Positions 21,856 to 64,000 of a stretch of 64,000 bases of DNA are shown piece after piece. Each line of letters opens with the position of its first letter. Position 1 is the first letter of the stretch. Both the position numbers and the translations under genes were made by a program. Source of the stretch: Polytrichum commune (Eukaryota; Streptophyta; Polytrichopsida; Polytrichales; Polytrichaceae); assembly GCA_950295325.1 (NCBI GenBank), contig OX485803.1:73051554-73115553 (forward strand), in the 5' to 3' direction. The notes below the pieces were generated by a model. That model was given only the letters and a program-made list of their open reading frames with translations, had not been told where the DNA came from and made no database searches.

Positions 21856-21909
21856 TTTTTGGTGCTTCCACTGAGAGTCGCTTTGGGGCAACTAGATTGT
21901 TAGGGCGTA

Positions 21910-22803
21910 ATGGGGGAGAATGAAGACAATAGGGGAGGGAGACAAAACATGGAAGATGTTTTAGGAGTACTGGCCATGTTTATGGAGCAGAATAGAAGAA
22001 GTTCTGGGAGTCATGAGGCTACAAAAGCCCTCAAAGGTGTTGTTGATAAAGTTGGTAGATTTGAGGGGAAAAATATTACAAGTTTCTTGAGGGCATATGT
22101 ATGTGAGTTTGAGGTGCATCAAGTAGAAGAGGGTCGTATGATGCAGACCTTTGACTTAGCCGTGGTTCCCGAAATTCGTGAGAGAATCCAAGAGATTCGA
22201 GAGGATGCTAATATGACATCTTGGGCTACATTTGAAGAGCGTTTGAGAGATGAATATTTTGATGAAGATTCTGAAAGGATGAGTAAAAAGTATTTTCTTG
22301 ATTGGGTGGAGCAGCAGCCAGGGAGTGAGATGGGTCCAAGTGAGTTGTTAAGAGAATTTGAGAGAAAATACACACAGTTGCCGTTGGCAGAGAGGCGTCT
22401 TCTTGAGACAAGAAAGGCGGAGCTATTTTTGCAAGCGACTGATAGTGCACTACAAGATAGGCTTCTTTTGCTTCTAGGGGATAGAAGCACTGAAGGTGGG
22501 TTTACAAATGATTGGAAGAGGGTCGAGGAGACGGTGACTCTCATGGCCAAACAACAAAGGGTAAAAACTAGAGGATTAGGGGGAAGAATGGAACCAACGT
22601 CAAGAATCGATGTGAAGGCTCCTGCGACGACTTTGCCGCCCTCTAGTCCGTCAACATCTTCGAAGGGTAAAACCTTAGATGAAGGCACCCTCGAGGAGTT
22701 AATGAGAGGCATGAGAGAGCTGAAGGTGGAGATGGGTGTTTTGGCAAAAGGCGTGCAAAGTCATACTCTTCACGACCCAGTGAAGGCTCAAAGGGATTTG
22801 TGA
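21910..22803 (+). pseudogene. Gypsy gag, N-terminal part
   Basis: 297 codons from the first ATG after the 5' LTR. Acidic and helical, with an N-terminal G-x-F-x-G-x-N-I-x-x-F-L-R-A-Y and a tract resembling the retrotransposon gag fold (E-E-R-L-R-D-E-Y-F). It ends one frame away from the zinc-knuckle segment that begins at 22803, so a single-base change separates the two. In the living element it would form the particle coat around the RNA. Confidence 0.7.
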
Positions 22804-23618
22804 TGCGATGTATTTGGTGTGATGATCCTAATCACAAACGAGGCGATTGTGGGTTGTATGCTGATGCCATAAAGAGCGGTATTGTTACCTTTAAAGAAGG
22901 TAGAATCAGAGATGCTGCAACAGATGAGCCTCTAGACACTAACTTTGGGAGAGGAGGCATGAGGAAATTGATGGATGATAAATTGAGAAATTTATCACGT
23001 GGAAAGGAGGTTGAATCTTATACAATTGGGGCTGAGAACAAAATGGAAGCAGCTACGCATGTCTCTAGAGAAGTGATGGTGAGAGGAGCACAAACCATAA
23101 GGAGTTTGACTGGGTGGGATGATCCAGTTGATGCGAGCACCATCAAAGCATATTTGATGAGTGAGCATGGAGAGAAAAACCCTTTTGATGCATCAGTGGA
23201 GGTCAAAAGGGGAAGAAGTGGAGAAGAAGAAGAGGGACACGAACCATCTAACAAAAGAAAGTCTCTAAGAGATGGGAAAATTACTCTAGAAGATGGACCT
23301 GCTAACAACACAAGGCAGAGGCATGCACCAAAACCTACTACACGACAAGGAGCTGATGTTTCATTACCAAAGGAGAAGTGGGAGGAGAGGATGAGTAGTA
23401 GCAAAGGAACTAAGGAGGGAGACAATACCAAGGGAAAGGGTAAGGCACCGGCCTACAAACTCAAATCTGATATTGAATCTTCAGTTGATTTGAAGGGCAT
23501 TTTGGAGGAGAAGATTTTAGATGCCAAGATTGAATTTACCTTGAGAGAAGTTCTTGGTATTGCCAAGAAAGGATTTCATGAGCTTATCATTGATGTGATA
23601 AAAAAAAAAGGCAAATGA
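22803..23618 (+). pseudogene. Gypsy gag C-terminus with zinc knuckle
   Basis: Starts M-R-C-I-W-C-D-D-P-N-H-K-R-G-D-C, an exact C-x2-C-x4-H-x4-C knuckle for RNA binding, then a long polar, charged linker. It leaves frame at an A-run near 23600-23609, after which the protease frame begins. The knuckle placed right after gag supports reading the two pieces as one broken protein. Confidence 0.7.
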
Positions 23619-24373
23619 CAGCAGAAACAGTGATGGTGGAGGCATTGAATAGTGTAGTGACGAAAGAAGAAGATGATGAGATTGGGCAGATGTTTGCTTT
23701 AAGATGTGATAGTAAGGGTAGTAGTGACAAAATCAATGAACGAGAGGTCATTTCTTTGAAAAACAACGAGGAGGAAGAAAACACCGATGAGAGCCAAACA
23801 AATGAGGTTGTAATGGAGGTACAAGTAACACAATGTGGAATTGATACAAATTGGAGGAATGATGGTGATGTGAGGACAATTTATACTCATCCATTTTGGG
23901 CAAGAGCTACTTCCGAAGTACGTGTAAAAATTGGAGGTCTTGGAGAGCCAATCTTAGCATTGATCGATCATGGCTCTGAGATCAATATCGTATCCAAAAA
24001 TATTTATGAGAAATGCAAATGGCCAATTGATACCAACCATGGATGGGTGTTGAGAGCTACCAACGATGGAAGAGATAGCCTTTATGGAGCATGTCCAGCA
24101 GTGAGGATCAAAATTGGAGACGTAGAGGTGGAGCAAAATTTCTTTGTGCAAAATCAAGGAAGTTATCAAACCATCTTGGGACAACCATACATCACTGCAA
24201 CAAGGATGGAGACCAAGGTACTTGATGATGGTTCACAGTATGCCAAGATTCGTAGTCTTGATGGAAGAAGGTCAATTCAATTTCTCACCGTGAGGCCAGA
24301 TCATGAGAGGCATAGGGATCAACTTAGAGATACTCCTATGGTCTTTAAGCATGATGATTTTTTGGATTTTTAG
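23615..24373 (+). pseudogene. Gypsy aspartic protease segment
   Basis: About 252 codons. An acidic linker is followed by a retropepsin-like core: V-R-V-K-I-G-G-L...I-L-A-L-I-D-H-G-S-E-I-N-I-V-S. The catalytic Asp is present, but the usual Thr/Ser of D-T/S-G is His here. Further on I see L-G-Q-P-Y-I. The segment closes at TAG 24371, two stops before the next segment. Confidence 0.65.
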
Positions 24374-24486
24374 ATTGCACACGTGGAGGATGGGGTACCA
24401 CAGGTGCAAAGGAATTTTCCAATATAACAAAACCCAATGTATAAAGAAGTAGTTATAGTATTTGGAATGTAAGAGAGGAAGGGTTT

Positions 24487-27400
24487 GTGAGTTTTCAAAA
24501 GGTAGAGAATTTGGATTCTACATATAGAAGATCCATCAAAAAAATCGAAAAGAAACTAAAAAAAGTTGGGGTAATTTTGAATGATGAGTGTATTTATGGA
24601 ATTATTAGAGAAGAAGGATTTTCAGATGATGTTTTACGTGGTTTAGAGACTTTGCAAGGAGAGGTCACATCGTGTGCCCAATTAGTGGTAGAGATTCATT
24701 CAATTGGGTTGTATGAAGAAATTTTGAAATTTGGTACGGAAGCAAAGATGGTTGGAAGTTATGGCTTGAATACTGAGGCAATGGTGAATACTAAGTATAA
24801 AACCGTGGCTAAGAAGGTAAAGCCAGTGGCAACACAACTCCCAACAGACTCTGAAGATCATATCAAGAAGGCTGAAGAAGAACCTAGATTGAGGGGGATA
24901 AGACATATTGGGCATAAGTTTACAGAAGAAACTTTGGCCAAACTGAAGATCGGAGGGGATGAGGTTTTGAATGTAGCTGAGAAGAAAAAGTTCTAGGAAA
25001 TGATCTTCAGGTATGGTAAGGCTTTTGCTTCTTCACCGGATGAAATTGGATGTGTTAATCCAAAGATTGTTGTTCCAATGGTTATTTTCACTGTTCCACA
25101 TGTGCCTTGGGATTTAAAGCCAATTCCTGTACCGAGAGCCTTGCTACCTAAATTGGTGAATCTGTTAAAGGAGAAGCTGCAGATGGGAATATTGGAACCA
25201 TTTATGGCCCCATATTCCAATCGTTGGTTCACAGTGCCAAAGAAGTCTGGAGCTTTGAGATTTATCCAAGACATGCAACCAGCCAACAAGGTGACAATTA
25301 GAAATAAAGGATTAAGACCGATTGTAGATGAGATTGCTGAGGCGTTTGCGGGACATGCAATCTATTCCATTGGAGATCTCTACTCAAGTTATGATTAATT
25401 TTAGCTTGCATCGGAGAGTAGGGATTTGACAACCATGAAGACACCATTGGAACTTATGAGAATGTGTACTTTACCTCAAGGTGCTACTAACTCAGTGGCT
25501 CATATGCAAAGTGCCATGAACAGAATCATGAGGGAATTTGTACCTGAGAAGACCATTCCTTTTGTGGATGATATACCTATCAAAGGTTGCAAAGAGGAGA
25601 TCAAAGACTCTACATTGGATGCGGATGGATGTAGAAGAATTGTGAAGAATCATATTGAAGATGTGGAGAAGATTTTGAAAAGGCTTGAGGAGGTGGATCT
25701 AACATTATCCATTGACAAGTCCAAATTTGGAGTTGATGAGATTTTGGTGGTTGGACATTTGTGTGGGAGGTATGGATGAAAATCCAACCCTCAAAAGGTT
25801 GATGTTATTACTAGGATGAAGGCATATAGTAGCATTACTGAAGTGAGAAGGTTTCTGGGAGCTTGTGTATTCTATCAAATTTGGATTCCACACTTTGCCC
25901 ACGTAGCTGAACCACTTTATAATCTCTTGAGAAAAAGAACCAAGTTTAGATGGGGGCAAAAAAAAAAGCTAGCTATGAAGAGTTTGAAAGAGGTTTTGAA
26001 GTTACCACCGATCTTGAGGCAAGTCAACTATGAGTGCGATAGACCGATAGTTGTTACTGTTGATACAAGCCCAATTGCTATTGGTTGGGCTATTGGTCAA
26101 GATGATGTCGAAGGGCGAAGGTTTGCCGTCAGGTTTGGAGCAAGAATTCTCACAGGTAGACAAAGAAGATATCCGCAAGTGAAAAGGGAACTTTTGGGAG
26201 CACTTACAGCTATCAAAGCATATAGAAATTATTTGATCAGAGCCAATGTAGTATTGGAGACTGATTGCTTACCATTGTTAGGAATGATTGCCAATTGTTC
26301 TACTCCTGATATTGCCATGTTGAGGTGGATTGCCTACATTAGATCAGTCAATCCTGTTTTGAGGCATATTTCTGGGAAAAGAAATTATGTGGCGGATATG
26401 CTATCAAGAGCTAGATATGATTGTGAAGAAGAAATGGAAACAGTAGAAGTTGGGGAAGATGATGAGGATGAAGAATATGGCTATGTGCATGCCACTAATG
26501 GAACAACTTCAAGTTTAGATGATCAGTCTTTTAGAGAAGATCTTTATGTAGGCAAATTGAGAGATATTGGTATTTATTTGAATACCATGGAGAGACAAGA
26601 GAATTGGTCGAACAAAGCTTTTAAAGAGATTAGACATCAATCCTACGGCTATTTGCTAAAAGATGGATTATTGTGGAAACGACCAAAAAGAAAAGACGGA
26701 GTGCCATTAAGAGTGGTAGATGATGTGGAGACCAAGAATCAAGTTCTCAAGGAGTTTCATGATACACTTTGGGCTGGGCACAGAGGAGTTTGGGCCACGT
26801 ACCATAAGATCAAAGAACGGTATTGGTGGAAGGGTCTCTATAAAGATATAGAGGAATTTGTGGCTTCTTGCACTGAATGTCAATTACAGTCTAAAGTCAG
26901 ATACAGAGACGAGTTGCATCCTACTTATCCACTAAGTATGCATTTCCAGTGGATGATCGATTTAGTAGCTATGCCTTTGGGGTTATGGGGCATGAAGTAT
27001 CTTGTTTTGGCAAGGGAAGAACTCTCAAACTATGTTGAAGGTAGAGCTTTGAGAACTAAAACTACAGAAGGTGTTTGTAGATTCATTTTGGAAGATATAT
27101 TTAGCAGATATGGTAGCATTGGTAGAATGAGGGCTGATCGAGGAGAATTATCTGCAACCGAGGCTAGAGTTTTTTTTGAAAGATATGGTGTAAAGTTGAA
27201 GTTGACAACTGCTTACAATCCTGAGGCAAATGGCAAGAGTGAGAGAGGACATCCTCCCATTGTAAATGCTCTTGTCAAGGCTTGTAGAGGTAAACCTAAA
27301 CATTGGCCAAGACTTCTACCATTTTCTTTATGGGCAGATAGAACCACTCATAGCACTATTACTGGATATATGCCTAGTGAGTTGATGTTAGGCCAGAAAC

Positions 27401-27909
27401 CCATTATGCCTATAGAGGATTCTGTACCTACATGGTTAGTGTTGGATTGGGAGGATGGTATTACAAGAGAGAGATTATTGGAGCTCCGAATTCAACAACT
27501 TGAAAGGTTGCCTGAAGATCAAGAGATTGCATTGGAGAAGTTGAAGGCTGCCAGGTTGCACAACAAAGAGAGGTTTGACAAGACTCACCATTTGAGATCC
27601 AAACCAATTAATGTTGGAGATTGGGTGTTAGTATTTGATAGCAGTTTGGAGCATCAACATAGCACTTTAAAAAAATTTGCTCGAAAATGGTTTGGTCCAT
27701 ATGTGGTGATTGCAGTACATGACAATGGCACCTACTCTCTTCGTGAGTTGGATGGAACAAGATTGAAGATACCTGTGGCTGGGAAACGGGTAAAAACATT
27801 TAGGAGGAGAGATAGCAGGTTTACTTCAAATGATCTTGCAAGTGTTGTGGATTTTGACTTGGACGAACAAAAAGATTCGGAGATATGTGAGTCTGATGAA
27901 GATATTTAG
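24487..27909 (+). pseudogene. Gypsy RT, RNase H and integrase
   Basis: One frame with in-frame stops at 24994, 25396, 25402 and 25777. RT: S-I-G-D-L-Y-S-S-Y-D, L-P-Q-G-A-T-N-S and the catalytic F-V-D-D at 25561-25572. RNase H: V-T-V-D-T-S with E-L-L-G-A-L and L-E-T-D-C. Integrase: an H-x-H / C-x2-C zinc domain near 26758-26882 (H-D-T-L-W-A-G-H ... C-T-E-C), core Asp in W-M-I-D-L, second Asp in R-A-D-R-G and Glu in K-S-E-R-G. C-terminal GPY/F module K-W-F-G-P-Y-V-V then D-N-G-T-Y. No chromodomain was seen. The 25396 and 25402 stops fall on Gln positions and 25777 on an Arg position, all C-to-T compatible. Confidence 0.85.
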
Positions 27910-27951: not shown

Positions 27952-28262
27952 TGTCGTGAAGCAAAAAATTTCATGTCATGAAGTAAACTTTTAGTAGTTA
28001 AGAGTTAGATAGTTGAGAGTTATCTATAGGAAGTTGCTAAAGAAAAGGGGAGTTGTCTTAAGTTAGGAATATGGATGCCTAAAATGCGAATGGATATATA
28101 AAGATGGGAAAGAGGAAGTCTTCTCTCTCCTTGAATAGTTTTCCACACTCTCATGTTTTCATCAAGTTTTTCAAGTTTTTGAGTTGGATTTTCTCGTCCT
28201 TAATTTGATCTAGTGCAGCTAAGAGCCCGGTGTTTTCCCTTAGCATAACTCTTTACATGACA
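27952..28262 (+). repeat. 3' LTR of the Ty3/gypsy element (311 bp)
   Basis: Same tips as the 5' LTR (TGTCGTGAAGC ... TTTACATGACA). It has one copy of the internal unit of about 75 bp, so either the 5' copy expanded or this one contracted by recombination between units. Confidence 0.85.
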
Positions 28263-28779
28263 ACGGTCCGCCTCCACTTTAGGTTTACATGAGGATAGTT
28301 TTGGACTTTAAACCCTAACACTTTTAGTGCATGGCATCCCTCATGGCAGGTATGGATAATATTGGCCAGGATAGTAGGGGTTTTCTTCATAACATCTCTT
28401 GAAGGCAAGCTGGGAAAAATGTGCGGCATGCCCTGGGGGACAACCCATGAAAATTCATTAAAAATACATAATCAAATATTGTCTATGTTTATTTGAAATT
28501 ATGAATATTGGAGCTATTTGAGTGCTCTGAATTGTTGAATTAATTTATACAAACACCAATATCTTGTATACAAAGTTACAAACACTTGTGTTTCTTCTCT
28601 TGTTCTAATTAAAATATAATGAGGTATGTTTTAAAACCCCATTTGGGTTTCTACTAAGGATTTGTGACCTCAAAAGACTTTGGGCTATAGTCCATGCACT
28701 TTTCTATCCTCTCATCCAAAAAGTGGAGTATCATGGTCATTTATGAGCCATGGCCTAATGCCTTAAATGTAAACAAGCC
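28263..28779. other. Spacer
   Basis: Gypsy flank to MITE; no coding content seen. Confidence 0.4.
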
Positions 28780-28782
28780 TAA

Positions 28783-29120
28783 GAGTCACTTCACACACAA
28801 GCCAAGGGCCATGACCATGTAGTTGTGAGGACCCTTGATTCTCATTCAAAAGCCATACCACTAACTTGGTCTACTAGAATTTGCGTCAAGCCTACCTATT
28901 GGAGATGGGCATGGTGCAAATTCCAACAGACCATGAAATTTATTTCTAGTACGCCATGTAGGAATCCATGTAGACTTTTCATCCATGATAATTTCCTTTG
29001 GGCCCTTAGGCATTCACCTTCTAGTGTTAAGTGAACATGGATGGTTTTGGCCATTTTACCTAATGAAAGGTCTTAGAATGCAATGGTCATGGGCCTTTAG
29101 TCTCATGTGTGGAGTGGCCC
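28783..29120. mobile_element. MITE derived from the Harbinger element at 17017
   Basis: Ends GAGTCACTTCACACACAAGC and, on the reverse complement, GGGCCACTCCACACATGAGA. TAA at 28780-28782 and 29121-29123. Its left 90 bp match the reverse complement of the right end of the 17017-20385 element (shared GTGAGGACCCTTGA and GCCATACCA-type blocks). The interior keeps a decayed version of the 23-bp hairpin. No genes remain, so it depended on a transposase in trans. Confidence 0.8.
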
Positions 29121-29152
29121 TAAGTCACACTTTCATTGCCTACACTATTTAC

Positions 29153-29165
29153 TATAATCAATGCA
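29153..29165. repeat. LINE target-site duplication, left copy
   Basis: TATAATCAATGCA, identical to 41261-41273. Confidence 0.85.
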
Positions 29166-31095
29166 CAAACAGTATAAAAGATGTGAAGGCCTTTGGGAGG
29201 CCGGAAGGCTGCAAGAGGTCAGGGGAGAGAGGTAAGGTTGAAGTGTCAGCTGCGAGATGCTCCTCGAAACTCTCCCCTCTCCACCCACCTTCCGGGCCCT
29301 GAAAGGCCGCTCAAAACGGCTACCTCAACAACCCAGGGAAGATACATAACACCACTCCGGTAGTGCATACCACTCATCTCTCCAAACGCGATATTCTCAA
29401 CGCTCACTCCTCACGCCGTTATATCAGATCCCGCATGCTCTTTGCACTTCTGCTTCGTAGATCTGCACATTGCTTCCGCTCCTCACCTGCCTACGCTGCT
29501 CCAAGAATCTTCTTTGCGCACACTGCCGCTGCTCTTCAAATCTCCACATCATCTTCGCCCATACCTGCTCACGCCGCTCCTGTCGATCCTATTGCTACCA
29601 ACGGTGAAGCCCTGCTGCCGCTGAAGATGCCCAAGATCCATCTGCTGCAAGAACTATCCGACTGACGCCCAAGTCCTACCTGCTGGTGCCCAAGACCCTA
29701 CCTGCTGTTGCTGCCGAAGCTGCGAAGCTATGGGAGAAAGTTCGAATCTGAGAGAAGTCGGTGCCATCGAAAAACCCAGCTTCGAGGAGTGCTGATCGAA
29801 GTTCTACCACCGAAGTCGGCACCGAAACTGTGAATTTTTGAAACTCAGATCCAACACCGAAACTAGCAAAGACAATTTGGACACCTACACACTTCCCCGA
29901 AACTCTCCTAGATCAAATACTTCATAGATTGTTGTTAGACTTATAAATCAACGATAACCTGATCACTTACAGATAGCCATACTCTTACATACACAAATCG
30001 TTCCATAGTCACATCCATTCATTAGAACTTGCTTAGTGAAAATATCTCTCTCTCACTTCTTGAAAATCGCCTCAAACTCTCTCCCTTGTTACTCCCACTA
30101 TCGCCGAAACTCCCACTGTCGCCGAAACATCACTGAGATCATTGCTGTCCAAACATCGCCGAGATCACTACTGTGAGTTTTTGAGAGACCCTTACTAAGA
30201 GAACGGTGCTGCAGTAAACTGAGTGATCGTCAATCTTAGCTGCAAAAAGAAATCCAGATCTGATAGGCATATTCACTAGATCACCTTTAGATCTGCTAGA
30301 TACACCCATCTCATCACTCTACTAGATTCCCAACACAGACTACTGCTTATCAAAAAGAAGAGATCACCAAGAGTCTGTTAAGTTCTGCCTAAAGTCGGTT
30401 ACAAGCTTGCCTAATCTTTTAGAGGATTCCCGAGGTGCACCGAGAATATCTGCTGCAGACAGACCCAACTAAGTCCCTGTCGAAATCCTGCCGAGGTCTA
30501 TTGGAAGCTGCTGTCTCGAAGGATTTAGCTGCTGGCTCGAAGGAGTTAGCTACTGTCTCGAAGGACTTAACGTGCGGAGCCGCTACCCACCGGAGTTTGC
30601 TGTCGGAGAAGTAGCTGGAAAGAAGCTGCTGGAAGGCCACTTTGTAAACACAAAATACTTGGTGCTGCTTGCTGGGTGCTTACTCTTGTTGCTATCACTT
30701 CAACAAACTCGAATTGATTGCTACCGACACTATTTGCTGCCGAACATCACTGCTGACAAACGTTGTTGTTGTCGAATTCTCACCTTCCCGCTTGCAGCCC
30801 GAAGAAGATCTCTAAGGTAAAACTCTAACCACCCATCAATTCTAAGTGTGAATAGACAAGTAGGCTAAAGGACAAAAGTGCTCACTTAGAAAAATAGACA
30901 CTCATATCAGGATAGCTCTTACATAGATCACACTCACTATAAACCCACAAATAAAATTTCATTGTGTTGTAGTACTTCTCATTAGAGTGCACACACTAGC
31001 AAGCAGACACACACACATAGCATTAGGCACATAGAATTGTTAGACTTTAGAATTGTTAGACTTTAGAAATTGTTAAACTTTGTTAGGATAGGAGC
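29166..31095 (+). promoter_or_regulatory. 5' UTR of the LINE (about 1.9 kb)
   Basis: From the left duplication to the first ATG of ORF1. It is GC-richer than the host spacer and contains short direct repeats: GCCGAAACT-type blocks near 30111-30170 and CTCGAAGGA(G/T)TTAGC blocks near 30515-30570. LINEs of this type carry internal promoters here; no specific promoter motif can be assigned. Confidence 0.5.
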
Positions 31096-33180
31096 ATGAA
31101 TATTACATGGATAATCAGCCTTGTCTTCACTCTTTGGCTATCACTAGCCACCCCATATTGGAGAAACTCTCACATTGTCTACTCTCACAACCCTTGGGAA
31201 TGCTTTGAACGAACTTGTTTTAAAAACACACAAGAAAAACTGTCTTTGTATATTTGGCATAATAAGATAAAAGATGTTTGCAAAACCATCAAAAACACCG
31301 AAACTAACAAGGTGCACTTTTGCCTCAAAACCAAAAGTACACATGTCTTAACTAGGAAAACCAACATAAGTACAAAGATTTGTCTCTTTATGTCATATCA
31401 CTTCTTCTCTAAAGACAAATACCAATCAGGCCCATCAATTAAGTGGTGGGAAGGTATTTGCCTTGAGAAACAAAGAAGTAACATCTTGAAAAATGCTACA
31501 AAAATCTATGGAAATGCTTTAGTATTATGTCTTTCTAAAAAATATACTCCTTATGATGTTATATACAGGACAACAATGGCCGAAGCTAGCTCTACAAAAA
31601 ACATGGATGCTTGTGTGATCGATGAAAATGATATAATCAACACCTCCCAAAAAAGAACAACTTCTACCATAGTAACCACCACCCAAAAGAAAGCCAAAAA
31701 CAAAAAAATCGTAGGGTCAAAATACTCCTCTCTATGGTTAAGATTTCACGCTTTAAATCATATAAACAAACAAAAAGAACAACCAATGGAAAGTGGAGAA
31801 ACTACAAGGGAGTTAATGAAAAGAAAAATTGACTTCGATGAAGCTAAAGAGATGCAGAATGCGCGACCTTCTTTCCCATATGTCCCTTAAAGAGAATGGC
31901 CATCTAAGAGGGAAGATGGGAAAGAATGACAACATTACAACCTAACCCAACTTCCATTCGACGTGGAAGTTGATGAGTACGGATTTTCTTTTGATTACCA
32001 AGTCTCAATTCACTTTGAACTTGGTGAACAAAAATGGGAAAGAGATGTGATTATGCAAAAAGTCAAAGAAATGTTAATAAAAATGAACATAGAACTTGGG
32101 GACCTAATTGGAGAACCCATAACAATTTTATGTTTTCACAAGTCTACTACATGGAGCGGAAGCATTAAACTTCATCTTAAAAACCCACTCCTTGATGCTA
32201 AAAGCCTCCTACAAGGAACAAAGGCATTTATCATCACATTAGAAGATGGGAAACCATGGAGAGGTAAAATATGTAAATCTTACGATACACTAGCTCTCAA
32301 TAACCTCCTCTAAGTAAAAATTACAAGCGACACACTAATCGGCAAAGAATGGTACAATATTTTAGAAGAGATAGTACACGAAGGATTTAAACATATATAC
32401 GACTATGAAATCACTAATGTCCAGAAAAAGAAAGAAATAGAATTTGCGTGGGTAGTAGCAACTTCACCCGAGCAAGCGAAAAAAATAAATATTTATAAAA
32501 TTTCACTTGACAATGAAATCTTCGAAGACAAATTCACCTCGAGGGATAAATTAACCGAAGATGAAAAAGCTAGAAAAAATGCTCTAATCTTAATAGTAAA
32601 AAACTTGACCAAAGAAAAAGATACAGAGGTAATTGAACATGAATTGAAAAAATACATGGGAGAAAGAAATGTGGTAAATATCTTCTTCAAAATTGAGAAT
32701 GAGAAGCATGTAGGGAGTTGTAACGTACAATGTCTTAACGCAGCTGTATACAAAAAAATTGTTAAGAAAAATACCAAACTCCTTGGAAAATATATAGAAT
32801 TTACCCCACATCCAAAAAACTTGGATGGTATAAACGCACCTTCCCAAGAGGAATTAAATAGACTAAGGTTCTCTGATGTGAACACAACACTCGCAAACAC
32901 TGTGAAAGCCTTGGAGAATGCACCAATCAAAGGCCTAACAAGACAAGAGGTGAAAACAATGATGGAAGGAGAAACCTCTAAATTACGCAAAGAGTTGGCA
33001 GAAAGAGAAGAGATTATGTACCGTAGAGCAACTACATACACCGACAAATCAATGAAATCTATATCGGCCCAACTTACAATATTCAAGCAGCAACTACTAA
33101 CAACAATGAACTACATCGAGAGCGTGACAAAAGACTCGGAAGGTGGACCAGATGAAGAAAATATGGACATGAGAAACTAG
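31096..33180 (+). pseudogene. LINE ORF1 (RRM-like RNA-binding protein)
   Basis: One frame of 695 codons, interrupted only by stops at 31888, 31927 and 32311, each explicable as C-to-T in CAA or CGA. A basic, Lys-rich tract lies near residues 190-210. Residues about 495-580 (near 32580-32830) read A-L-I-L-I-V-K-N-L-T ... G-S-C-N-V-Q-C-L-N ... Y-I-E-F-T-P-H-P, the beta-strand pattern of an RRM. A charged, probably coiled segment ends the protein. ORF1 proteins of plant LINEs coat the RNA and often carry an RRM. ATG at 31096 is the earliest start; 31576 (M-A-E-A-S-S) is an alternative that avoids the odd hydrophobic N-terminus. Confidence 0.65.
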
Positions 33181-34170
33181 GTAAGGTAAAAAACGACCCG
33201 GTAACACTTAATAAATACACAAAATTTATTTTAATACTAAAAACATAAAAAACAATAAGGTATTTATAAGTATCACCAACCCAATAGAAAAATTGGACTC
33301 CAAAAAATAAATAATTAAATTTAAAACAAAATATAATCAACCCGAAACTAAAGAAACTTATCAATTCAAAATCACCAACTACCAAAACCTCAAAACACAA
33401 AAAGCCAACAAAATATATAATATCATTATAACCAAAACACACTCAAATACAACAACCAATAAAATACAACATAAATATTATAAAATAATACTTAATATCA
33501 TACAAAAAATACATGAAAATGAAACAAACACAATATTCAATAACACTCCAATAAAAACACAAAAAACCAACATACAAACAAAAACCAAAACAAAACCACG
33601 TACCAAGTACGTCAAAAAGAACCACCAAACAAACATCACAACCATTAACAAACATACAAAATATCACCAACGAACGCATTACACACCTGATAATGATAGA
33701 ATGACTACACGTACAAACAATATAACGGCCTCGGCCTCCCGGCCTCCCGGCCTCGCCACAAACCTAAAAATAAATACCAACTCACAAACAACTGGACACC
33801 TAACACAATAACAAATCAACATAACCAAAAACAAAATCAATATACATTCCAACACCAACATCAATACCGAATTCAACACCAAAAAACAATTACAAAGTCC
33901 TTCTCAATTATTAGGGTCAAAATCCAAAACATTATACCAAAACAAGGTCTCCAACATAAAACAGGCTCGGCCTTCCGGCCTGGCCACCAAACTAGAAACA
34001 TATACCTATTCACAAACAACTGGGCACCTAGAAAAATAACAACTCACACACCTAGAAACAACTCAGATACCCACTTCTCAACTAAACAGCTAACAAATAA
34101 AATACCAGCTTTACCTAACCTTTTTACTACAACCAAATTCACACTTACAAAATATTTAAAATTAAATAAA
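33181..34170 (+). other. LINE inter-ORF region with a direct repeat
   Basis: Four consecutive stop codons, TGATAATGATAG (33688-33699), close the ORF1 frame. After them the same frame is open to the TGA at 34171, just upstream of the 2A motif. Two imperfect copies of about 90 bp start at about 33727 and 33964. Each begins with a CGGCCT-rich hairpin-prone stretch and continues CACAAACAACTGG(A/G)CACCTA. The region may encode an N-terminal leader of ORF2 or be a structured RNA spacer. Confidence 0.4.
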
Positions 34171-34221
34171 TGAAAACAAAAAACAATCCAAACCCACGGA
34201 TATTACTTCATTAATAAGCTA

Positions 34222-34263
34222 GCATTATTACAATGTGGAGATATAGAACCTAACCCAGGACCA
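34222..34263 (+). other. 2A-like ribosome-skipping motif
   Basis: In frame with the APE segment, the codons read A-L-L-Q-C-G-D-I-E-P-N-P-G-P, an exact fit to the D-(V/I)-E-x-N-P-G-P consensus at which ribosomes skip a peptide bond before the final Pro. 2A-like motifs are known from the N-terminal part of ORF2 in several APE-type LINEs, where they can release an N-terminal peptide. Here a TGA at 34171 separates it from the open frame further upstream. Confidence 0.8.
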
Positions 34264-35736
34264 ATGCCCAACATTCTACGCACACACCCCGCTTCACATA
34301 AAAAGAGAGCCAAAACATATTTTATTCCCAACACGATAAAACTACAATCCGATTACCAACACATAGCAAGTTCATTCGCACCTATACTAGAAACTAATCA
34401 CCCACTACATCACCAAACAAACACTAAGTATCCATACTTACATCGATATATCCAAACACAGAATCATTCTCCATCAACACACATACTATATGCTCTAATC
34501 ATTACTATAAACCCCTCCATAGACACATGCAATAACATACTAGCACAACCCCACACTTACGACTTTAACGATATTTGGACCAACACACTAATCATTAGAC
34601 TAGCCAACCTTAACAACCCCCCCGAACGGCACATCTTAACACAATACCCATATACAACATTTGTAAAAGATAACCAAGATATAATAAACCCCAAAAATTC
34701 TATACATACTGAATTATATAAATTTATACATAACCAAGAGACTCCACCTACTCCAATTATTTTCCAAAGAAAATTTCCCTTTCTTCCTAAAAAACTAATT
34801 ACTGAATCACTCCGCTGCCTCGAAAACATAACTGAATACTCACACCCTCCCCCACTCCCAAACATCCCGACAACCACCCCTAGTATCATATCACACACCA
34901 ACCACGAAACAAACATAATAACTTGGAATGCCTCATCGCTTAACACAGCCTTACCAAATTTACAAAGTTTAATAAATCACTCCCATAGGAACACAGCAAT
35001 TATAAATATCCAAGAAACCAAACTTACAGCAACCAAATCCACAAAATACATACAGAACCTATTCCCTGAATACAAGCTTATTTTTAATAATACACACGCC
35101 CTCACAAGATGCATACAACAAAGAATGCCTTACACCCCCGGGAGAGGTGGCCTACTCACGCTCATTCATAACAAATACGCATTTACTGGAAACGATACCA
35201 AGATCCCTACGCCATCAAATATCTCCCCATATTTGCAAATAATAAAAATAAACAACCACCCACTCTTGCCCTGGTTAATAATACACATATATATGCCCAC
35301 ACACTTAGAAGACACCCACCTCATTCCCTTCCTAAAAAATGAAATCACTAACCAAACAACCATACACCCTAACCACATACACATCCTATGCGGCGACTTC
35401 AACCGAGACATTGCACTCACTGGAAGACAAAACAACAATAATAATACGCCACCACATGAAGAAGACATTCAATGGAAAAACTTCACTACAACCCTTAATC
35501 TTGAATATATCCCAATAAATACTAATATCACAAGACAAGGAGGCTATAATTACACATCAACTAGCCTTATAGACGGTTTTTATATCAACTCACCAGACAA
35601 TAGCAGATTTACCTCTACAACAAACACAAATATGAACCTAAACTCCGACCACTACCCAGTCACCTTACACATACCCCAAAACATACTCATAGCTAGACCC
35701 CCCCCCCCACAAATATTACACCAACTAGAATATTAA
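34264..35736 (+). pseudogene. LINE ORF2: APE endonuclease segment
   Basis: 490 codons, open. The first ~215 residues are a basic, low-complexity lead-in. The endonuclease/exonuclease/phosphatase fold follows: T-W-N-A-S-S-L (34921), N-I-Q-E-T-K-L with the catalytic Glu (about 35007), R-G-G-L-L-T-L-I, H-I-Y-M-P-T, C-G-D-F-N (35389-35403), S-L-I-D-G-F-Y and N-S-D-H-Y-P-V (35641-35661). All key metal-binding and catalytic motifs are present. It would nick target DNA for target-primed reverse transcription. The frame leaves the polyprotein at the C11 run 35698-35708. Confidence 0.8.
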
Positions 35737-38550
35737 ATCCAATCCCACCGGAAAACTTAGAAAATTTTAATATAGAATTCTTTGAAGCAAACTCCACACA
35801 ACTAAACGAACTAACCCGCTTACTAGAGAATCACAATCACCTCAACCCTGACCAATGGCATGAAGCCTGTATAACATTAGACAATATTGTCGAAAAAATC
35901 TCAGATACCATTGAAAAAACATGCAAAGCAACCCCAATACAAAACCTTACGAACAGAACAGCACAACAAGGTGGATTCCTACCACGTAAACTATCCAAAG
36001 AATGGAAAAAACACCTAGACACATACCACCTCATTAGGAAAACTATATATATCGCAAAGAACAACCCACAATGGCAAACTCACCCCATCCTAAATGTGAT
36101 CCGTAACCACCAACATGTTCAAATTTCACATCCACCTACAACAACCACCCCCCCCCCCAAATGAATGGATTGATACCATTGCTGCTATCGCAAAAACCGC
36201 TAATAAAGAAGCCAGAAAAATCACCACAAAATATACCAAAAATTGTATTCTAAAAGCTATATCAAAATACCGTCAAATGTACGAAAAAAATCCTAAAAAA
36301 ATAAGTAGAAAAGTCTTTAAACACTCCGAAACTTCACCCCTCGACTCCATAATGGATAGACAAAATAACATCCTAACTAATCTTGAAGATATAACAAAAG
36401 AAATACACATTCAACAATATTCAATCCTAAAAATATGTCACCACGCTTCCACAAATTACTCTTTCTATTCTTTAAACATTGCTACAAACAAAAACAAATC
36501 CTTTCATCGTGGAAAACTAGTCTAACAGTTTTACTATATAATAAAGGTGATCCGTCACAACTCACTAGCCATAGATCTATCGCACTAGCTAACACTATAT
36601 ACAAACTATACACAAGCACATTAACCTCTATTCTTTCCACTTATGGGGAAAGATACCAAATTCTGCACGATAGCCAAGAAGGCTTCAGAGTTGAAAGAGG
36701 AACATCCAGACAACTCCAACTCCTCATCGCAGCATTAGAAGACACAAGATTGACAAACCTAGACATATATATACTCTACATTGACTTAAAAAACGCCTTT
36801 GGCTCCATTGACCATGCTAGACTCTTAGCCATAATGAAGGATCTTGGATATCCAACCGACGCCATAAGCCTCATCGGCAACATATACTGACAAGCCTCTA
36901 CAATATACTGTGGCGAATACTTTGGTAAAACACTACCGATTCCCATTCAAAGAGGTACAATACAGGGAGACACTCTAAACCCATACCTATTCTTAATATT
37001 TTTAGAACCCCTCGTTAGATGGTTACAACAAGGAAATAACGGATACACCTTCGGAACATCCAAAGTTAAAATCTCATTTGCAGCATATGCCGATGACTTA
37101 GCAACAATGGCTAACAAATTAAAATCATTACAAATACAACTAAATAAATTAGACAAATTCTGCGAATGGGCAGGAATGGACCTCGGAATACCCAAATGTG
37201 CAGTGACTGGATGCCCTAATAAATCTAAAATGAATCCCACAATATTCAAAGCCCTAATCCAGTCTACTAATATAAACTATAGAAACCAACCATTACCAGT
37301 CTTAAACCAACACGAACCATACACTTATCTGGGAATCAATATCGCACCATCACTTAAATGAAAAACACAAATTAATACAACTACAGCTAAAGTTATCAAA
37401 CAATGTCAAGCCCGGGTAGCAAGCCCGGGTAGCAAGCCCAGCCACCATGAAACAAAAATCAACATGACAGATACAGTCATACATGTTGGTATAGCCTATA
37501 GCTTTTACGCAGTACCATACTCTATCCCGGCTATCAAAAAACTCGATAAGAAGATTATAGCACTACATAAAACAATATGCGGATTACCAAAAAGCACATC
37601 TAATATCGCTACACAGCTCCCACACGACCTATTCGGAATTGAAGCATTCTCATTACAAAATGCCTATTTGCGTTGCATCGGAGAACAACTACAAAATACC
37701 CTCAATGACAAAGGTAGACTCAGTAAAATCTATTATGGTTTAATACAATTTATACTTGCAAAATTTGGAGGTTCCAAAGAAAAAACCCGCATTAAATACC
37801 ATCACTGCGTTAGATCACCTGTTACTAGAACGCTATTCCTAATCAAACATGAAGCCGGAGTCCATCTAAAAAGTACAATTGATAGCTTCCTATTAAATCC
37901 ATCCCCACTTGAAACTGCATGGTTGAAAGAAACATAAAATGTACAGGGCCTAAACCCCAGCACTTCACTCAAATTATTACAAAAACTCCTACTGCATAAT
38001 ATAATAAGATTAGAACAAATAATCATGCCTAATGGCACCACCTTAATGAGCCCGGATGACTTTAAAATATACCACTCCAATCCTACAAAACTCATCAAGA
38101 GTGCATTAAACATCGCGAACCAGCTATTTTGTCACCCTTCCTGTTACCAAGAATGTCACCTACCATGCCCATACCACTACCCCCCACGAATCCTAAAGAA
38201 TGATTAGACAATAATAAATCATACCATCCTCCCTCATTACCCAACACCCCCTATACACCCTCCGAACCCCCCTAACCCTCACCTACCACCACCTCCGAAC
38301 ACTATGCTTAACAATCCCCGTCATTTTCCCATACACACAATACTTGACCACAAACAACGACAACTCACAGATTCTAATGGGATACAAAGAAAAGACACAT
38401 CATATCTATGCCAATGGATTACTCCAAATAATAATATATACAACAAATGACGCACCCAAAGAGATTTATTCCCCTATTGTGACGCATATACTAGTCGACA
38501 CAATACCGAACTACTTACCCAATATTATACGAAAAGACAACACAAACACT
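35709..38550 (+). pseudogene. LINE ORF2: reverse transcriptase segment
   Basis: Frame 0 from the C11 run (35698-35708) to a second C11 run (36148-36158), frame 1 to about 36430, then frame 0 again. RT motifs: S-H-R-S-I-A-L-A-N-T-I-Y-K, E-G-F-R-V-E-R-G, Y-I-D-L-K-N-A-F-G-S-I, G-T-I-Q-G-D-T-L-N-P-Y-L-F, the catalytic A-Y-A-D-D (37084-37098), G-I-P-K-C and Y-T-Y-L-G-I. Stops at 36888 and 37359 are TGA where Trp would fit. A 13-bp tandem duplication (GCCCGGGTAGCAA) lies near 37409. After about 37900 similarity is no longer recognisable and stops are more frequent. Confidence 0.78.
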
Positions 38551-38552
38551 TT

Positions 38553-40290
38553 TTGAACATCATCAATGCACACTTCTCCATAGAACAACAACGAGACACT
38601 AGATACATTATCCCTGCCACAATTATTCCATTGGCATATATCTCCATTAATGAATGCAACCCAGAGAGTGACATTGAAATAAATACTAACACTATCCAAA
38701 CACAATTCGACGTCACTCACATATATGAAGACAACGGTCGGCACCTCATTACCATCCCAAAAACTAGATTATTGTGGTTATGGAAACAATACCATCAAGC
38801 GAAAGACACCCCACATGGTCTAGAACCACCTACCCAATCATTTGAAACAGAAATCGTATGGCTATACCAAAGATATAAATACCGTATTCCAAAAAATGAC
38901 CCACTTAAACGTGCCCAATATACAATACCAACTCCTATACTAGATTTCCTAATTACAACATTCAATATCAACCATTCATACTTCTCATCCCCAGTTACTT
39001 GTCCCACACAATTCACCCAATTCCACTCACCATTATCTAGGGATAGAATATTTGGATCCCTAGGGAAAGCGTTTGATAAAAAATGGAAGGAAATTGGTTA
39101 CGCCCACCCCCATAAAGCAACACACTTACAACAAGCCATCCATTGGGCCCGCATTGCAGCCAAACACGACCCAAATACAATCACTATACTTATTTCAAAA
39201 GATATGGATTGGTACCATAACTTTAACCCATACACCAGCCCATTCTTGGACACACACATCATTGCCCACTTTGCAGCAGACACCATCACATACAAAGAAC
39301 CCACAATTCCCCCCGAACTCAATATCACGAGGAAAGAATTATCAACACTACGAATATTCTGTAACCACCACCAAAACAATCACATAGGTACCTACGAACA
39401 AATGAATCAACTCACCAACATAGCAAATAACCTCCAAATATTACAAATTCACACACAAATTGCTCCACCCACCCCCTTAAATACCGCCGTTAACCCTAGC
39501 AAAAAATGGGCTAAATCTAACTATCCAAACACATCCGATAACAATATCATACCTATTCCACAACTCCCTAATTATCAAACTAACTTACCATTAAAATTTC
39601 ATCCACAATTCATCTACTATACAGACGGTTCTTTTATGAAACCCAAAGAAATTAACCCTGGAGTATGGAGAAGAGAAAGAGTTGGCTATGGAATTTATAG
39701 CCCAAAGGGCCTTAACATCTCCAAAAGACTACATGGACTCCAAAACATACTAAGAGCATAAATGATAGCCATACATGAAACACTAACAATCATTAATACG
39801 CTATATCCAAACGAACCCGCATACATATTTACCAACAGTCTCAATGTATTATACTTACTTAACACACAAATTAAACACCCCACACTTCACAATAGCCACC
39901 CCGACCAAATCACCCTCGCCACCATGGTACAACTACTTCAAAACCGGACACAACCAATCGCACTATACAAAGTCATAGCACACGTCAACATTTACGGCAA
40001 CGAACAAGCAGACAAATTGGCAAAAGAAGGGCTAGAACTAGAGCACATAATTGCCATTCACCCACATGAGCATGCCCATGCTACCCCATACTACTACCAA
40101 AAGGACATCTGGGCCTCAATGGAGGACGTCCCTGACAAAGGCCCCGTTAGATTCTTAGAAAAGCAAATTATAAAATATGATAGAGAAAATAACTTGGAAA
40201 ACATGGCCACACAAACTCCTAACATGTACAAATGGACAGGGAACACAGAAATAGACAAAGAATTATCTAATGAATTTTGGGAAAACCCAT
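38553..40290 (+). pseudogene. LINE ORF2: unassigned segment and RNase H
   Basis: About 350 codons (38553-39600) match no domain I can name; W-A-R-I-A-A-K...I-T-I-L-I-S and D-W-Y-H-N look like a Rossmann-type alpha/beta fold. RNase H follows: Y-Y-T-D-G-S-F (about 39615), a stop at 39759 exactly where the catalytic Glu is expected (R-A-*-M-I-A-I-H-E), I-F-T-N-S-L-N where the third acidic residue is Asn, and H-V-N-I-Y-G-N-E-Q-A-D-K-L-A. So the fold is clear but two acidic positions are lost. RNase H inside the LINE would remove the RNA strand after first-strand synthesis. Confidence 0.7.
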
Positions 40291-40292
40291 AA

Positions 40293-41075
40293 ATCTCAGA
40301 TAAACAAAAATCATGCCTCATCAAATTCCGAACCGGAACTTATATGGGAAATGCTCGAAAACAATTGTTCTTCGGTAGACAAACATATCCATCTATCATA
40401 TGCCCCATCTGCAATTCATGCGAGCCGGATACATGGTTACATGTACTACTTACGTGTAAACAACAACACATACATTCACTCCACGTCAACAGACACAACA
40501 AAGCAGTATGGGAAATTAGGAAACTACTAATCTCATCCGAAAAATCCCGATGTTATATTCTCATGAATGTTGGCACCTTCAATAACACACCCCAAGAAAA
40601 CACTGTTCCCAATTGGCTACTCCCTTGCACATGCGGTACTCAAAGATGCCATTGTAACTCCAGATTTAGACCTGACATCCTTTGTGTTAGAGGATTACCA
40701 TACCAAAACGACCCCCCCACAGACATAGACCCCAACCTCACCATACAATTCATCGAATTCACATATTGTAATGATAGATTCTCACCAGAAACACTCGAAG
40801 CAAAAAATAACAAACACAGACCATTAATCGATAGTATCGCTGCTAGAGGATGGAAAACCGACCCCCTTATTATAATCATTGCAGGCGCCAGAGCCACTAC
40901 CCACATTCCATCAATGAAGTCACTCGAAAATAAATTTAAAATACCTATGCCTACCATTAAAAATACCTTCAAAAACATCAATACTATCGCTATAAAATAT
41001 GTCATGTCTATCCTCCTCCACAAAAGAAGAATAGAAAACCACCAACCGCTACCCCAAACACTAGACCCCCCATAG
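40293..41075 (+). pseudogene. LINE ORF2: CCHC finger and restriction-like endonuclease
   Basis: The frame continues after a stop at 40290. I see M-G-N-A-R-K-Q-L-F-F-G, then C-x2-C-x9-H-x4-C (40401-40457), the finger seen before the endonuclease of R2-like LINEs. It is followed by a C-x-C...C-x-C patch and then R-P-D-I-L (40668-40682), F-I-E-F-T-Y (from 40749) and E-A-K-N-N-K-H-R-P-L-I, which fit the R/K-P-D, (D/E)-x-T and K-x2-K-(Y/H) signatures of the PD-(D/E)xK-type RLE. The region ends with a basic tail at a TAG (41073). This second, unrelated nuclease is what makes the element Dualen-like. Confidence 0.75.
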
Positions 41076-41260
41076 ATAAAACCATTAAAACCAACCATTA
41101 TGGTCCTTGTTACTGGTGACTAGTGACTATAGTGTCTACTCTCGAAAGGGAGGAGTAGATCTGTACTTCCATACCTTTGTCCTGAGGGCATCGGATTGGG
41201 GCTGGATCGAACAGACACTTAATTCACGTCAGTCTCCTCCGGAGACCGAAGTTTTTCTTC
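41076..41260 (+). other. LINE 3' UTR / RT-recognition tail
   Basis: Contains GACTATAGTGTCTACTCTCG, AAAGGGAGGAGTAG, GGGCATCGG and CAGACACTTAATTCA, closing with a GC stem (CTCCTCCGGAGACC) and GTTTTTCTTC. The same succession of blocks forms the tail of the SINE at 42808-43110. In known pairs this tail is what the LINE reverse transcriptase recognises. Confidence 0.65.
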
Positions 41261-41273
41261 TATAATCAATGCA
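41261..41273. repeat. LINE target-site duplication, right copy
   Basis: TATAATCAATGCA, identical to 29153-29165. Confidence 0.85.
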
Positions 41274-41679
41274 TTTTAGCCGCATCCACCAAATCTCTAA
41301 AAAAGGTGGGCCTTTGAAGGGGAGGCTGCACACGTTCACAAATGTTGATTTGAAAAAGAGTTTGATAAGCGAAGGTAAAAGTTCCAACTCCAATCAGAAA
41401 CGGAGGTTCCTTGCAAAACCTCCATGTTGGATCAAAGTTGAAAACAAATAATTCAACCCAATAAAAGAGGGACCAACCTTGAAACCAAACTCCTCGAAGT
41501 TAGGCACATGTCAAGGCCAACATTCTTTTATTGTGGTTACCAAACTCCGTTTCAAAACCAACCATTTCAAACGTGTGCGACCTCAAAAGGAGTAGAAAAA
41601 TATACAATCCACCCTCAATATGCATTACCCTAGTAAGTGTTAAAATTGTGTATGTGTTAAGGAAAAATTTCCATCCTTA

Positions 41680-42120
41680 CAACTCTGTGATGAGATATTG
41701 TTATGGATGATTGAACTTTGAATGAAAAATCACTTAGTAGGTGACAATACTTGCAACACTGTAAATGTATATAATGCCCAAACCTTATTACAAGGAATGA
41801 CACTTACTGTTAGGTTAATATTTAGTGTTGGTGACACTACACTGCGGTTTACAATTAATATTGAGCATGTCAATTGAACATTTAGTATTGGCGACACTAA
41901 ATAACATATTTAGTGTAGTTGTTGCGGTTAGGTAGTAGGGTTTAAGGATTAGGGTTTCTGTCAACTTTGGCAATAATTGGGACCCTAATAATTGGCATTT
42001 GGATGAACTTAAAGTAAGTTGGGATGACAATATTTGTAAACCTATTCATAGAAGTGTCATTAAAAACATTACACAATGACATAATGCTATAAGACACTAA
42101 ATATCATAATCTAGTGTAGC
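41680..42120. repeat. ATTTAGTG-family copy, rearranged
   Basis: 41680-41925 matches the right two-thirds of the 5151-5515 element (TGTTATGGATGATTGAA, GTAGGTGACAATA, TTACAAGGAATGACA, ending ACTAAATAACATATTTAGTG). A second terminal-like piece (GACACTAAATATCATAATCT) ends near 42118. Confidence 0.5.
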
Positions 42121-42154
42121 ACTTGAATTTGCAAAGAGTGAAACATGACCCATT

Positions 42155-42406
42155 ATGAATGCACATAAGCTCATTAATTATGAGCTAGAATTTGATCTCA
42201 AAAATCCCTACATACTTATTGAGGAGGGAATCATAGGTATGTTTGATGAAAGAGATGGTGCAATTTACAATGAACCCATTAAAGAAATTGACAGTTTGCA
42301 AGTTGGTGATGTGGTGGTAGATAGAGTAGGATTCAAGAATGTTGAAAGTGCATTAGTGGCCTTGAAACAATTTTTAGAACAAAGAACTATAACACATGTA
42401 TTCTAA
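42155..42406 (+). CDS. Hypothetical 83-codon ORF
   Basis: Starts M-N-A-H-K-L and has an acidic, soluble composition (E-E-G-I-I-G-M-F-D-E-R-D-G...V-G-D-V-V-V-D-R-V-G-F). There are no repeats, signal peptide or membrane segment, and I recognise no family. It sits between two repeat relics, so it may be a chance frame or the last exon of something older. Confidence 0.2.
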   Translation: MNAHKLINYELEFDLKNPYILIEEGIIGMFDERDGAIYNEPIKEIDSLQVGDVVVDRVGFKNVESALVALKQFLEQRTITHVF

Positions 42407-42654
42407 AGCATTCGAACACTTCAAAGGAAATAGGACCTTGACGTGCACAAGAATCTCATTATACTATTATAGATTCGTTCTTTCATTACACTTAGATGTG
42501 TGATGACATTCATATCTTATGTGTTTTCATCAAGTATTTATATAAGTGTTACTATTTTTAATTCCAAAATCACACAATTGTTATTCATGTAAGTGTTACA
42601 AATTGCGTATGCTACCCCCGATAAGTGCTAAAATATTGTTAACACCACATTAGG

Positions 42655-62002: not shown

Positions 62003-64000
62003 ATGGGGACTCCGACGCTGCAGAGACGACCGGCCCTGGCGAGCTTGCGCTTCGTCATTTTGTTCACATGCCTTTTGCAAAGGTCAGTAAGACAATTTGC
62101 TACAGGACCTCAAGTGTCCTCAATTCGTGAATATTATGAGTTTTGATGATGATTCGCGTACTGGAAGTGAAGTAATAGATTTTGAGGTGCAGGATGTTGG
62201 ATTACACATTGTGCATTGTTGAATGTTGGAGCTGATATGAGCATCTTGCGGTGTGGTCGCAGTGGAAGATTGGCGTCCGCCCTGACTACAGATTTCTATC
62301 CAACATACGCTCCCCCTGCAGGGCCAACAACACCGCCTACTTCTTCAACTCCACCCACATCCTCTCCAACTCCTCCCAATTCTCAGCCGCCATCTGCATC
62401 AACAGTCCCACCACCTTCAACTGCAACTACACCACCACCTTCATCTCCCCCCAATTCTCAGCCGCCATCGGCCTCAACACCCCCGCCTTCAACCTCTACT
62501 CCTCCATCTAATTCTTCTCCTCCCTCATCATCACCCGCTCCTCCCAACTCTCAGCCACCATTGGCACCAACAACATCTCCAACTCCACCTTCACAATCAC
62601 CATCTGCTGGCACTCCCCCCAAATCCTCTCCTTCACCAGAAGGCAGTCCACCTGCATCCCCTCCAGCAAAGAGTACACCACCATCTTCTGCTCCTTCCAA
62701 CTCCCCACCTGCAGGAACACCACCATCTTCTGCACCAGGAATTGCCCCTATGGTTGCACCTCCCAGCAACTTGACCCCGGGTTCCTCACCATCATCATCA
62801 CCACCTGGTAGCGCACCTCCAGGTTCATCTCCTTCGAACTCCCCTCCCGGCGTCGTCTCTCCACCGGGTTCATCTCCATCTTCTCCCCCTGCAGGCTCTT
62901 CTGCCCCACCAAGTATGTCGCCATCTTCTTCCCCCAGTTCTCCCCCCAGTGCGGGTACACCGCCAGGCTCATCTCCCGCTTCATCTCCTTCCAATTCACC
63001 TCCCGGTATGGGAACCCCGCCAGCTGCATCTCCCGCATCCACATCCCCTTCAAGCTCCCCTCCAGGTTCGTCTCCAGCATCATCTCCCTCAAATTCTCCC
63101 CCCGGTGTAGCAACCCCACCAGCTTCATCACCCGCATCATCATCGCCTTCAACCTCCCCTCCAGGTTCATCTCCCACCAATTCTCCTCCCGGTGTGGGAG
63201 TTCCGCCAAGCAGTTCGTCCCCAATGTCACCTCCCTCAAACTCTCCTCCAGGGATGGGACCCCCACCAGCCTCTTCCCCAGCCACGACCTCTCCTGCGTC
63301 TTCTCCTTCGAGTTCCCCTCCTGGTGTTGTCTCTCCTCCAGGACAATCTCCATCCTCTCCCCCTGCAGGCTCTTCTGCCCCACCAATGATGTCACCCTCT
63401 TCTTCCCCCAATTCTCCTCCTGGTGCTGTTCCACCTTCAGGCTCTGCTCCAGCTGCTTCTCCCCCTGGCTCCTCAGCCACTCCTCCAAGCATGGCTCCCA
63501 TGAATGCTCCTCCATCACCTCCTACATCATCTCCTTCAAGTTCTCCTCCGTCATCGTCTCCACCAACCTCTAGCACTCCTCCACCAAGCTCCAGCACACC
63601 TCCCTCATCATCACCCCCAACCACTTCATCACCGCCTCCTTCATCACCTCCAACCAGTACACCTCCTCCTTCAAAATCCCCATCAAAATCTCCTTCACCA
63701 GCACCAAGGTCAATGGGCCCTCCCTCGTCTCCTCCATCATCATCAACAACGCCAGGGCTACGAAGTGGTGGTGCTCCAGCACCCTCCCCTGTACCACCAG
63801 CGGTAAGCTTACAGTTGTGTTTGCTTTATGCAAAGATCGATTTGAACTACTTTTGTTATCCAAATGTGTCTTTTGAGAGAAATCTTTGGAGTGCAATATT
63901 GCTGATATGTATGCTAAATTTCATAGTTTCCTCTAACAGGGTTCCGGCGCAGGACAGTTTCTGCCAGGCGCTGTCAGCACATTTGCTGTGGTGTTTGCTT
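62003..64000 (+). CDS. Secreted Pro/Ser-rich (arabinogalactan-type) protein, 3' end cut off
   Basis: Exons 62003-62082, 62263-63802 and 63940-64000 (continues past the window). The junctions (AAG|GTCAGT, GTCGCAG, GCG|GTAAGC, CTAACAG) keep one open frame: 540 codons before the last intron. The first ~33 residues form a signal peptide (basic start, F-V-I-L-F-T-C-L-L core, cleavage expected after L-A-S-A); splicing exactly through it supports the model. About 500 residues of S-P, T-P, A-P and S-P-P repeats with Gly follow, dense in arabinogalactan glycomodules, including near-repeats such as S-P-P-G and S-P-S-S-S-P. Exon 3 begins G-S-G-A-G-Q-F-L-P and turns hydrophobic (A-V-S-T-F-A-V-V-F-A), as in a GPI-anchor signal. 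It would act at the cell surface/wall. No fasciclin or lipid-transfer domain is present in the visible part. Confidence 0.78.

Follow-up and report, generated by a model that had tools for sequence, protein, structure and literature searches.

A decayed dual-endonuclease LINE in Polytrichum commune with a CAPAM/PCIF1-like domain

Architecture and state of the copy

A 64,000-nucleotide stretch of Polytrichum commune DNA (contig OX485803.1, positions 73,051,554 to 73,115,553 of the forward strand; hereafter the window) contains a decayed copy of a long interspersed nuclear element (LINE) that has two unrelated endonucleases. The product of its second open reading frame (ORF2) consists, in order, of a 2A-like leader, an apurinic/apyrimidinic-type endonuclease (APE), a reverse transcriptase (RT), a Cys-rich stretch, a CAPAM/PCIF1-like domain, RNase H, a CCHC zinc finger, and an R2-type restriction-like endonuclease (RLE). 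The dual-endonuclease LINE is real and of a known kind; the new part is the CAPAM-related domain, which is shared within the group and probably inactive. The features of the element are as follows.

29166–41259, plus strand: decayed LINE copy of dual-endonuclease type, from the 14-bp repeats at its bounds and its internal domains
29152–29165, no strand: 5' copy of a 14-bp direct repeat (target-site duplication), identical to 41260–41273
31930–33180, plus strand: possible ORF1, two adjoining open frames 5' of ORF2, role inferred from position
34174–35733, plus strand: open frame with the APE (NIQETK 35005–35022, GDFN 35392–35403, SDH 35644–35652); Pfam match just below cut-off, motifs aligned with six relatives
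34225–34263, plus strand: 2A-like peptide LLQCGDIEPNPGP, also in sibling P0261
36387–37358, plus strand: RT, with a stop at 36888, from Pfam RVT_1 and the RT tree; AYADD at 37083–37097
38682–39428, plus strand: CAPAM/PCIF1-like methyltransferase-fold domain, with NPPF replaced by AHPH at 39102–39113
39600–40040, plus strand: RNase H, split by a stop at 39759, limits approximate, from PF00075 on 39762–40289 and the translation
40293–41072, plus strand: C-terminal frame with the finger and the R2-type RLE (RPD from 40668, E of IEFT at 40755, first K of K-x2-K-H at 40803)
40401–40457, plus strand: CCHC zinc finger (C-x2-C-x9-H-x4-C), ligands kept in 36–39 of 40 rows
41076–41259, plus strand: 3' untranslated end, a terminal hairpin and then a T-run, fold not strong
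41260–41273, no strand: 3' copy of the 14-bp direct repeat, identical to 29152–29165

The APE, RT, finger, and RLE motifs in this list had all been named in an original prediction made from the sequence, and each was found.

The repeat at the two ends is exact (CTATAATCAATGCA) and is the longest exact match between 28000–34300 and 41050–42500, the runner-up being 11 bp. Three independent exact 14-mers, the terminal repeat included, recur 11–13.2 kb apart in the whole window, as compared with ~0.8 predicted from composition. Because other 14-mers recur at a similar distance, the repeat counts as support, not proof, for both ends, and it was not relied on as their only evidence. The original prediction had taken exact 13-bp duplications to fix the ends; an exact terminal repeat is indeed present, but it is 14 bp long and has this lesser weight.

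The ORF2 frame is interrupted by seven stops (36888, 37359, 37935, 38205, 38448, 39759, and 40290) and shifts between ~35.7 and ~36.4 kb, so that this copy is not the complete template for the family that it had been thought to be. The 3' end of the element folds only slightly better than shuffled sequences (z-score −1.95). No Rfam match at the gathering threshold was found anywhere in the window, and no tRNA was found in it by ARAGORN (bacterial code used).

Two endonucleases in one element

The 260-amino acid RLE region has 431 homologs (E≤1e-3, identity up to 93%). In an alignment of 40 rows (the window and 39 of the 120 matches listed), K171 is present in all 40, E155 in 39, D128 in 38, and the four finger ligands in 36–39. 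These homologs and the conservation of the catalytic and zinc residues place the RLE and finger motifs beyond chance. Fold comparison ranked seven R2 chains ahead of all else for this region. It is the fold comparison alone that shows the R2-type identity, as the profile of the RLE alignment had no R2 match among solved structures (best 0.038 and 0.43, both unrelated). No Pfam model covers the RLE region. R2 retrotransposons are not known to carry an APE, an RNase H, or a CAPAM-like domain. Their RLE fold is like that in the window (8gh6, 9nl3, 9dou), but their RT falls in a different clade.

A protein search yielded 78 relatives, whose domains were called with profiles built in this analysis. 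The APE in the window lies just below the curated Pfam cut-offs (PF14529, 3.2e-5; PF03372, 1e-4), and four relatives (P0250, P0252, P0254, and P0258) have an APE above the Pfam cut-off. Its GDxN and SDH/TDH motifs are conserved throughout an alignment of seven sequences, those of the window and six relatives. RVT_1 was matched in both halves of the RT (Pfam, 1.3e-9 and 8.4e-13). Between the RT and the CAPAM-like domain, the window translation has the Cys-rich stretch, and four relatives have a PHD finger, which is above the Pfam cut-off in P0251 and P0257 and just below it in P0255 and P0258. RNase H, originally predicted to follow the RT, does so in the window with a match just below the cut-off (PF00075, 2.5e-5); it was seen in 17 of the 54 members of alignment A3, many of which end before its position.

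The CAPAM-like domain occurs in 15 of the 78 relatives. The RLE is present in 13 of these 15, and the other two (P0252 and P0260) end before it. APE, RT, CAPAM-like domain, and RLE are found on a single chain in P0247, P0250, and P0258. The close siblings P0261 (2A-APE-RT) and P0241 (CAPAM-RNase H-RLE), which cover the two parts of the architecture, are each listed on a 13,377-base contig, probably one and the same. The frame in the window is broken by stops and frameshifts and leaves unity unproven, which would suit APE-type and RLE-type LINEs nested or side by side and mimicking one element. Nested or adjacent elements were rejected on account of the three single proteins carrying all of the domains, and the sibling pair likewise makes such an arrangement extremely improbable. 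The two endonucleases almost certainly belong to one element.

The other 63 relatives have no CAPAM-like domain. Seven of them (P0243–P0246, P0254, P0256, and P0261) belong to the family or its clade but are incomplete, ending before or inside the position of the domain. This leaves 56 LINE proteins outside the family, none of which has the CAPAM-like domain, although some of these may be cut short too. Two of the 56 (P0278 and P0282) have an RLE, with no APE detected.

We placed the RT in an unrooted maximum-likelihood tree of 73 rows. Nine of the 78 relatives were omitted for want of a clean RT span (P0242, P0253, P0259, P0261, P0273, P0286, P0289, P0294, and P0313), and P0241, with no RT match, is also outside the tree; four of the 15 CAPAM-bearing proteins are thus unplaced. 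The window, its siblings, all 11 CAPAM-bearing rows, P0254, and P0256 form one clade of 18 rows (support 99/94), and R2, L1, and APE-only LINEs lie outside it. The label of CAPAM plus RLE requires four changes on this tree, owing to partial rows that do not carry the label. As the tree carries no root and contains several long rows, it does not settle the deeper branching order. Against solved structures, the RT of P0254 matched R2 best (1.7e-36) and L1 second (1.4e-21). The claim that an APE and an R2-type RLE occur in one LINE family is therefore borne out by single chains with both, by an RT outside the APE-only LINEs, and by the R2 match of the RLE fold. The original prediction had named an RT within an APE-only clade and the lack of a structural match to the PD-(D/E)xK fold as contrary to it, and the reverse was found on both counts.

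On its architecture, the element is predicted to be a decayed member of the dual-endonuclease group called Dualen/RandI; the assignment follows the published description, as the comparison included no sequence of a named Dualen. Passages of PMC3636483 and PMC4640811 describe an architecture like that of the window element, with APE, RT, RNase H, and an RLE of PD-(D/E)xK type combined. The window element also agrees with the group in having its APE upstream of the RT and its RLE, with a CCHC finger, downstream. These published passages name neither a methyltransferase-fold domain nor a 2A peptide, whereas the window family has both. Scans of viral contigs (P0005, A1, A2) and genome contigs (A1) gave no named full-length relatives. 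The description by Kojima and Fujiwara (2005) is said to include a cysteine protease as well. No NCG-type motif was found in the six frames of 29166–34300. P0254, a member of the same RT clade, carries an NCG motif upstream of its APE and RT (residues 1–30, QNDSYNCGIWTL), which resembles the catalytic site of cysteine proteases of the Ulp1 type. A dual-endonuclease lineage separate from the named Dualen/RandI would accord with the failure to find the protease in the window and with a comparison that included no named Dualen. However, the equality of the architecture with the description in those passages and the presumed Ulp1-like motif of P0254 argue against it, and we judge it quite improbable.

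The Dualen/RandI group is known in green algae, according to passages of PMC4438587 and PMC8226300, and the element had been called unusual outside them. This is not supported, given the wealth of metagenomic relatives, as seen in the 431 RLE homologs, and the Dualen elements in cryptophytes mentioned in a passage of PMC12747079.

The CAPAM/PCIF1-like domain and other features

The domain between the RT and RNase H of the window family has a CAPAM-type methyltransferase fold, an assignment in which we have very high confidence. It is conserved, an alignment of 54 rows having 6 columns without variation and 39 that are nearly invariant, and the FASPL/FSSPV and FGS/FGA blocks flanking the site are retained from PCIF1 through the LINE family. 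The Pfam name of PF12237 suggests a WW domain. We rejected this identity, as a passage of PMC7641849 calls it a CAPAM-like methyltransferase, with which the fold agrees; Pfam lists no true WW domain in 13 long proteins.

According to a passage of PMC7927073, m6A methyltransferases carry the motif [DNSH]PP[YFW], and changing both prolines in METTL16 abolishes methylation. An inactive PCIF1 has been made by changing the N and F of its NPPF (passage of PMC10544176). The canonical motif is found in the aligned loop of none of the 15 long relatives. Four have NPEY (P0247, P0257, P0258, and P0262), and NPKY, NPPN, MPDF, TPDF, FPGH, FPGT, HPGA, HPEP, HPNN, HPHS, and a gapped QG-M each occur in one protein. 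Fourteen of the 15 have lost the second proline; P0252 keeps it, with no aromatic residue following. The loop of the window family reads AHPH, with H219 kept in 53, P220 in 51, and H221 in 45 of 54 rows. Among 120 close relatives, the loop could be read by pattern in 88, none of them canonical, and was unreadable by pattern in 32. NPPF of CAPAM/PCIF1, the cap-specific adenosine N6-methyltransferase (6irv, 6irz), is thus absent from all 15 long LINE relatives, and the LINE version differs also in being fused into a LINE protein.

Judged by these loops, the domain is probably catalytically dead. A working methyltransferase with an altered loop, acting for example on the base next to the cap in the RNA of the element, would be in keeping with the NPEY and NPKY loops and with the conserved blocks beside the site. 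It is unlikely, however, in light of the effect of the double-proline change in METTL16, the near-universal loss of the second proline, and the differences in the loop from branch to branch, which are expected if catalysis was abandoned.

No report of a CAPAM-like domain in LINEs was found among the titles and abstract openings listed by searches of an open-access library; a prior description is possible, and the work of Iyer et al. (2016) on adenine methylation in eukaryotes may contain one. Neither this domain nor the 2A-like peptide figured in the original prediction.

The peptide LLQCGDIEPNPGP is located at the start of the ORF2 frame, upstream of the APE. Its sequence GDIEPNPGP, shared by the window and P0261, matches D-x-E-x-N-P-G-P, which we take to be the 2A consensus. 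2A peptides are known at the start of LINE ORFs. The consensus here is the same, and it is carried by a dual-endonuclease LINE, in which ribosome skipping is predicted. A search of an open-access library gave no paper on a 2A-like peptide in APE-bearing retrotransposons of the non-LTR (long terminal repeat) type. The possible ORF1 frames at 31930–33180 have no Pfam match above cut-off. Shortly 5' of ORF2, a 79-nt unit occurs twice (33740–33818 and 33968–34046, 82% alike). Over 32001–40000, the element is strongly enriched in A and C on its sense strand, with GC skew reaching −0.54 and AT skew +0.39 in 2-kb windows.

Elsewhere in the window are an exon-like open frame for an eIF2B-alpha-type initiation factor (13041–13826; PF01008, 6e-54), a Ty3/gypsy-like element in which aspartyl protease, RNase H, and integrase were matched (21904–27906), and, on the minus strand, a repetitive Gly/Glu/Asp-rich open frame (62551–63825) in a G+C-rich stretch (0.545 at 62–64 kb).

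Proposed role in retrotransposition

R2 and L1 are established to use target-primed reverse transcription, which starts from a nick. By analogy, the ORF2 protein would bind its own capped mRNA, the RT would copy this mRNA from its 3' end at a nick made by the RLE or APE, and RNase H would remove the RNA. On sequence grounds, the first cut could be the work of either nuclease. The 2A-like peptide may give ribosome skipping at the start of ORF2. The CAPAM-like domain, having lost the canonical methyl-transfer motif, would serve as a module for binding the cap or 5' end, tethering the protein to full-length capped RNA or helping to resolve the 5' junction. We propose such a module because the fold is retained while the catalytic loop diverges between branches, which suggests that binding, rather than catalysis, is under selection. 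Cap or 5'-end binding as the role of the domain is put forward tentatively.

CAPAM grips the m7G cap through both its helical and methyltransferase domains, according to passages of PMC10544176 and PMC7927073. The alignment of the LINE domain spans CAPAM 417–668, the methyltransferase part, alone, and the helical domain that helps in cap binding was not detected. This would favor a linker that is structural or binds RNA in general and does not act at the cap, whereas the invariant and nearly invariant columns suggest a specific surface, though not which one. We regard such a linker as possible but somewhat doubtful.

Overall, we favor, with moderate confidence, a Dualen/RandI-type element whose dead CAPAM-like domain binds the cap or 5' end. 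Several points weigh against it. The RT tree contains no named Dualen sequence. The plain sequence match to solved CAPAM is only 0.038 for the window domain and 0.026 for the family profile, and the alignment, confined to residues 417–668, does not show a full cap pocket. The NPEY and NPKY loops allow for activity on some substrate. The APE was detected in only four of the 15 CAPAM-bearing proteins, although its lack in the others says little, as several begin close to the RT. Activity of the 2A-like peptide is putative and follows from its match to the consensus.

The match to the R2-type fold shows at the level of structure that an APE-bearing LINE family also has an unrelated nuclease. The dual-endonuclease group, in addition, gains a common extra domain (15 of 78 long relatives, all 11 tree rows in one clade, and none of 56 outsiders). 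With some reservation, we suggest that this group may have taken up a CAPAM/PCIF1 domain ahead of the divergence of its branches. The canonical methyl-transfer motif would then have disappeared from every sampled branch, with the fold retained as a reader of the 5' cap that couples recognition of full-length capped RNA to target-primed reverse transcription. How LINEs recognize their own RNA at its 5' end and complete the second junction is a long-standing question. A conserved domain related to a cap enzyme, located between the RT and RNase H, is a concrete, testable candidate for 5'-end recognition and, if this is true, would act within a LINE replicase as a dedicated sensor of the cap.

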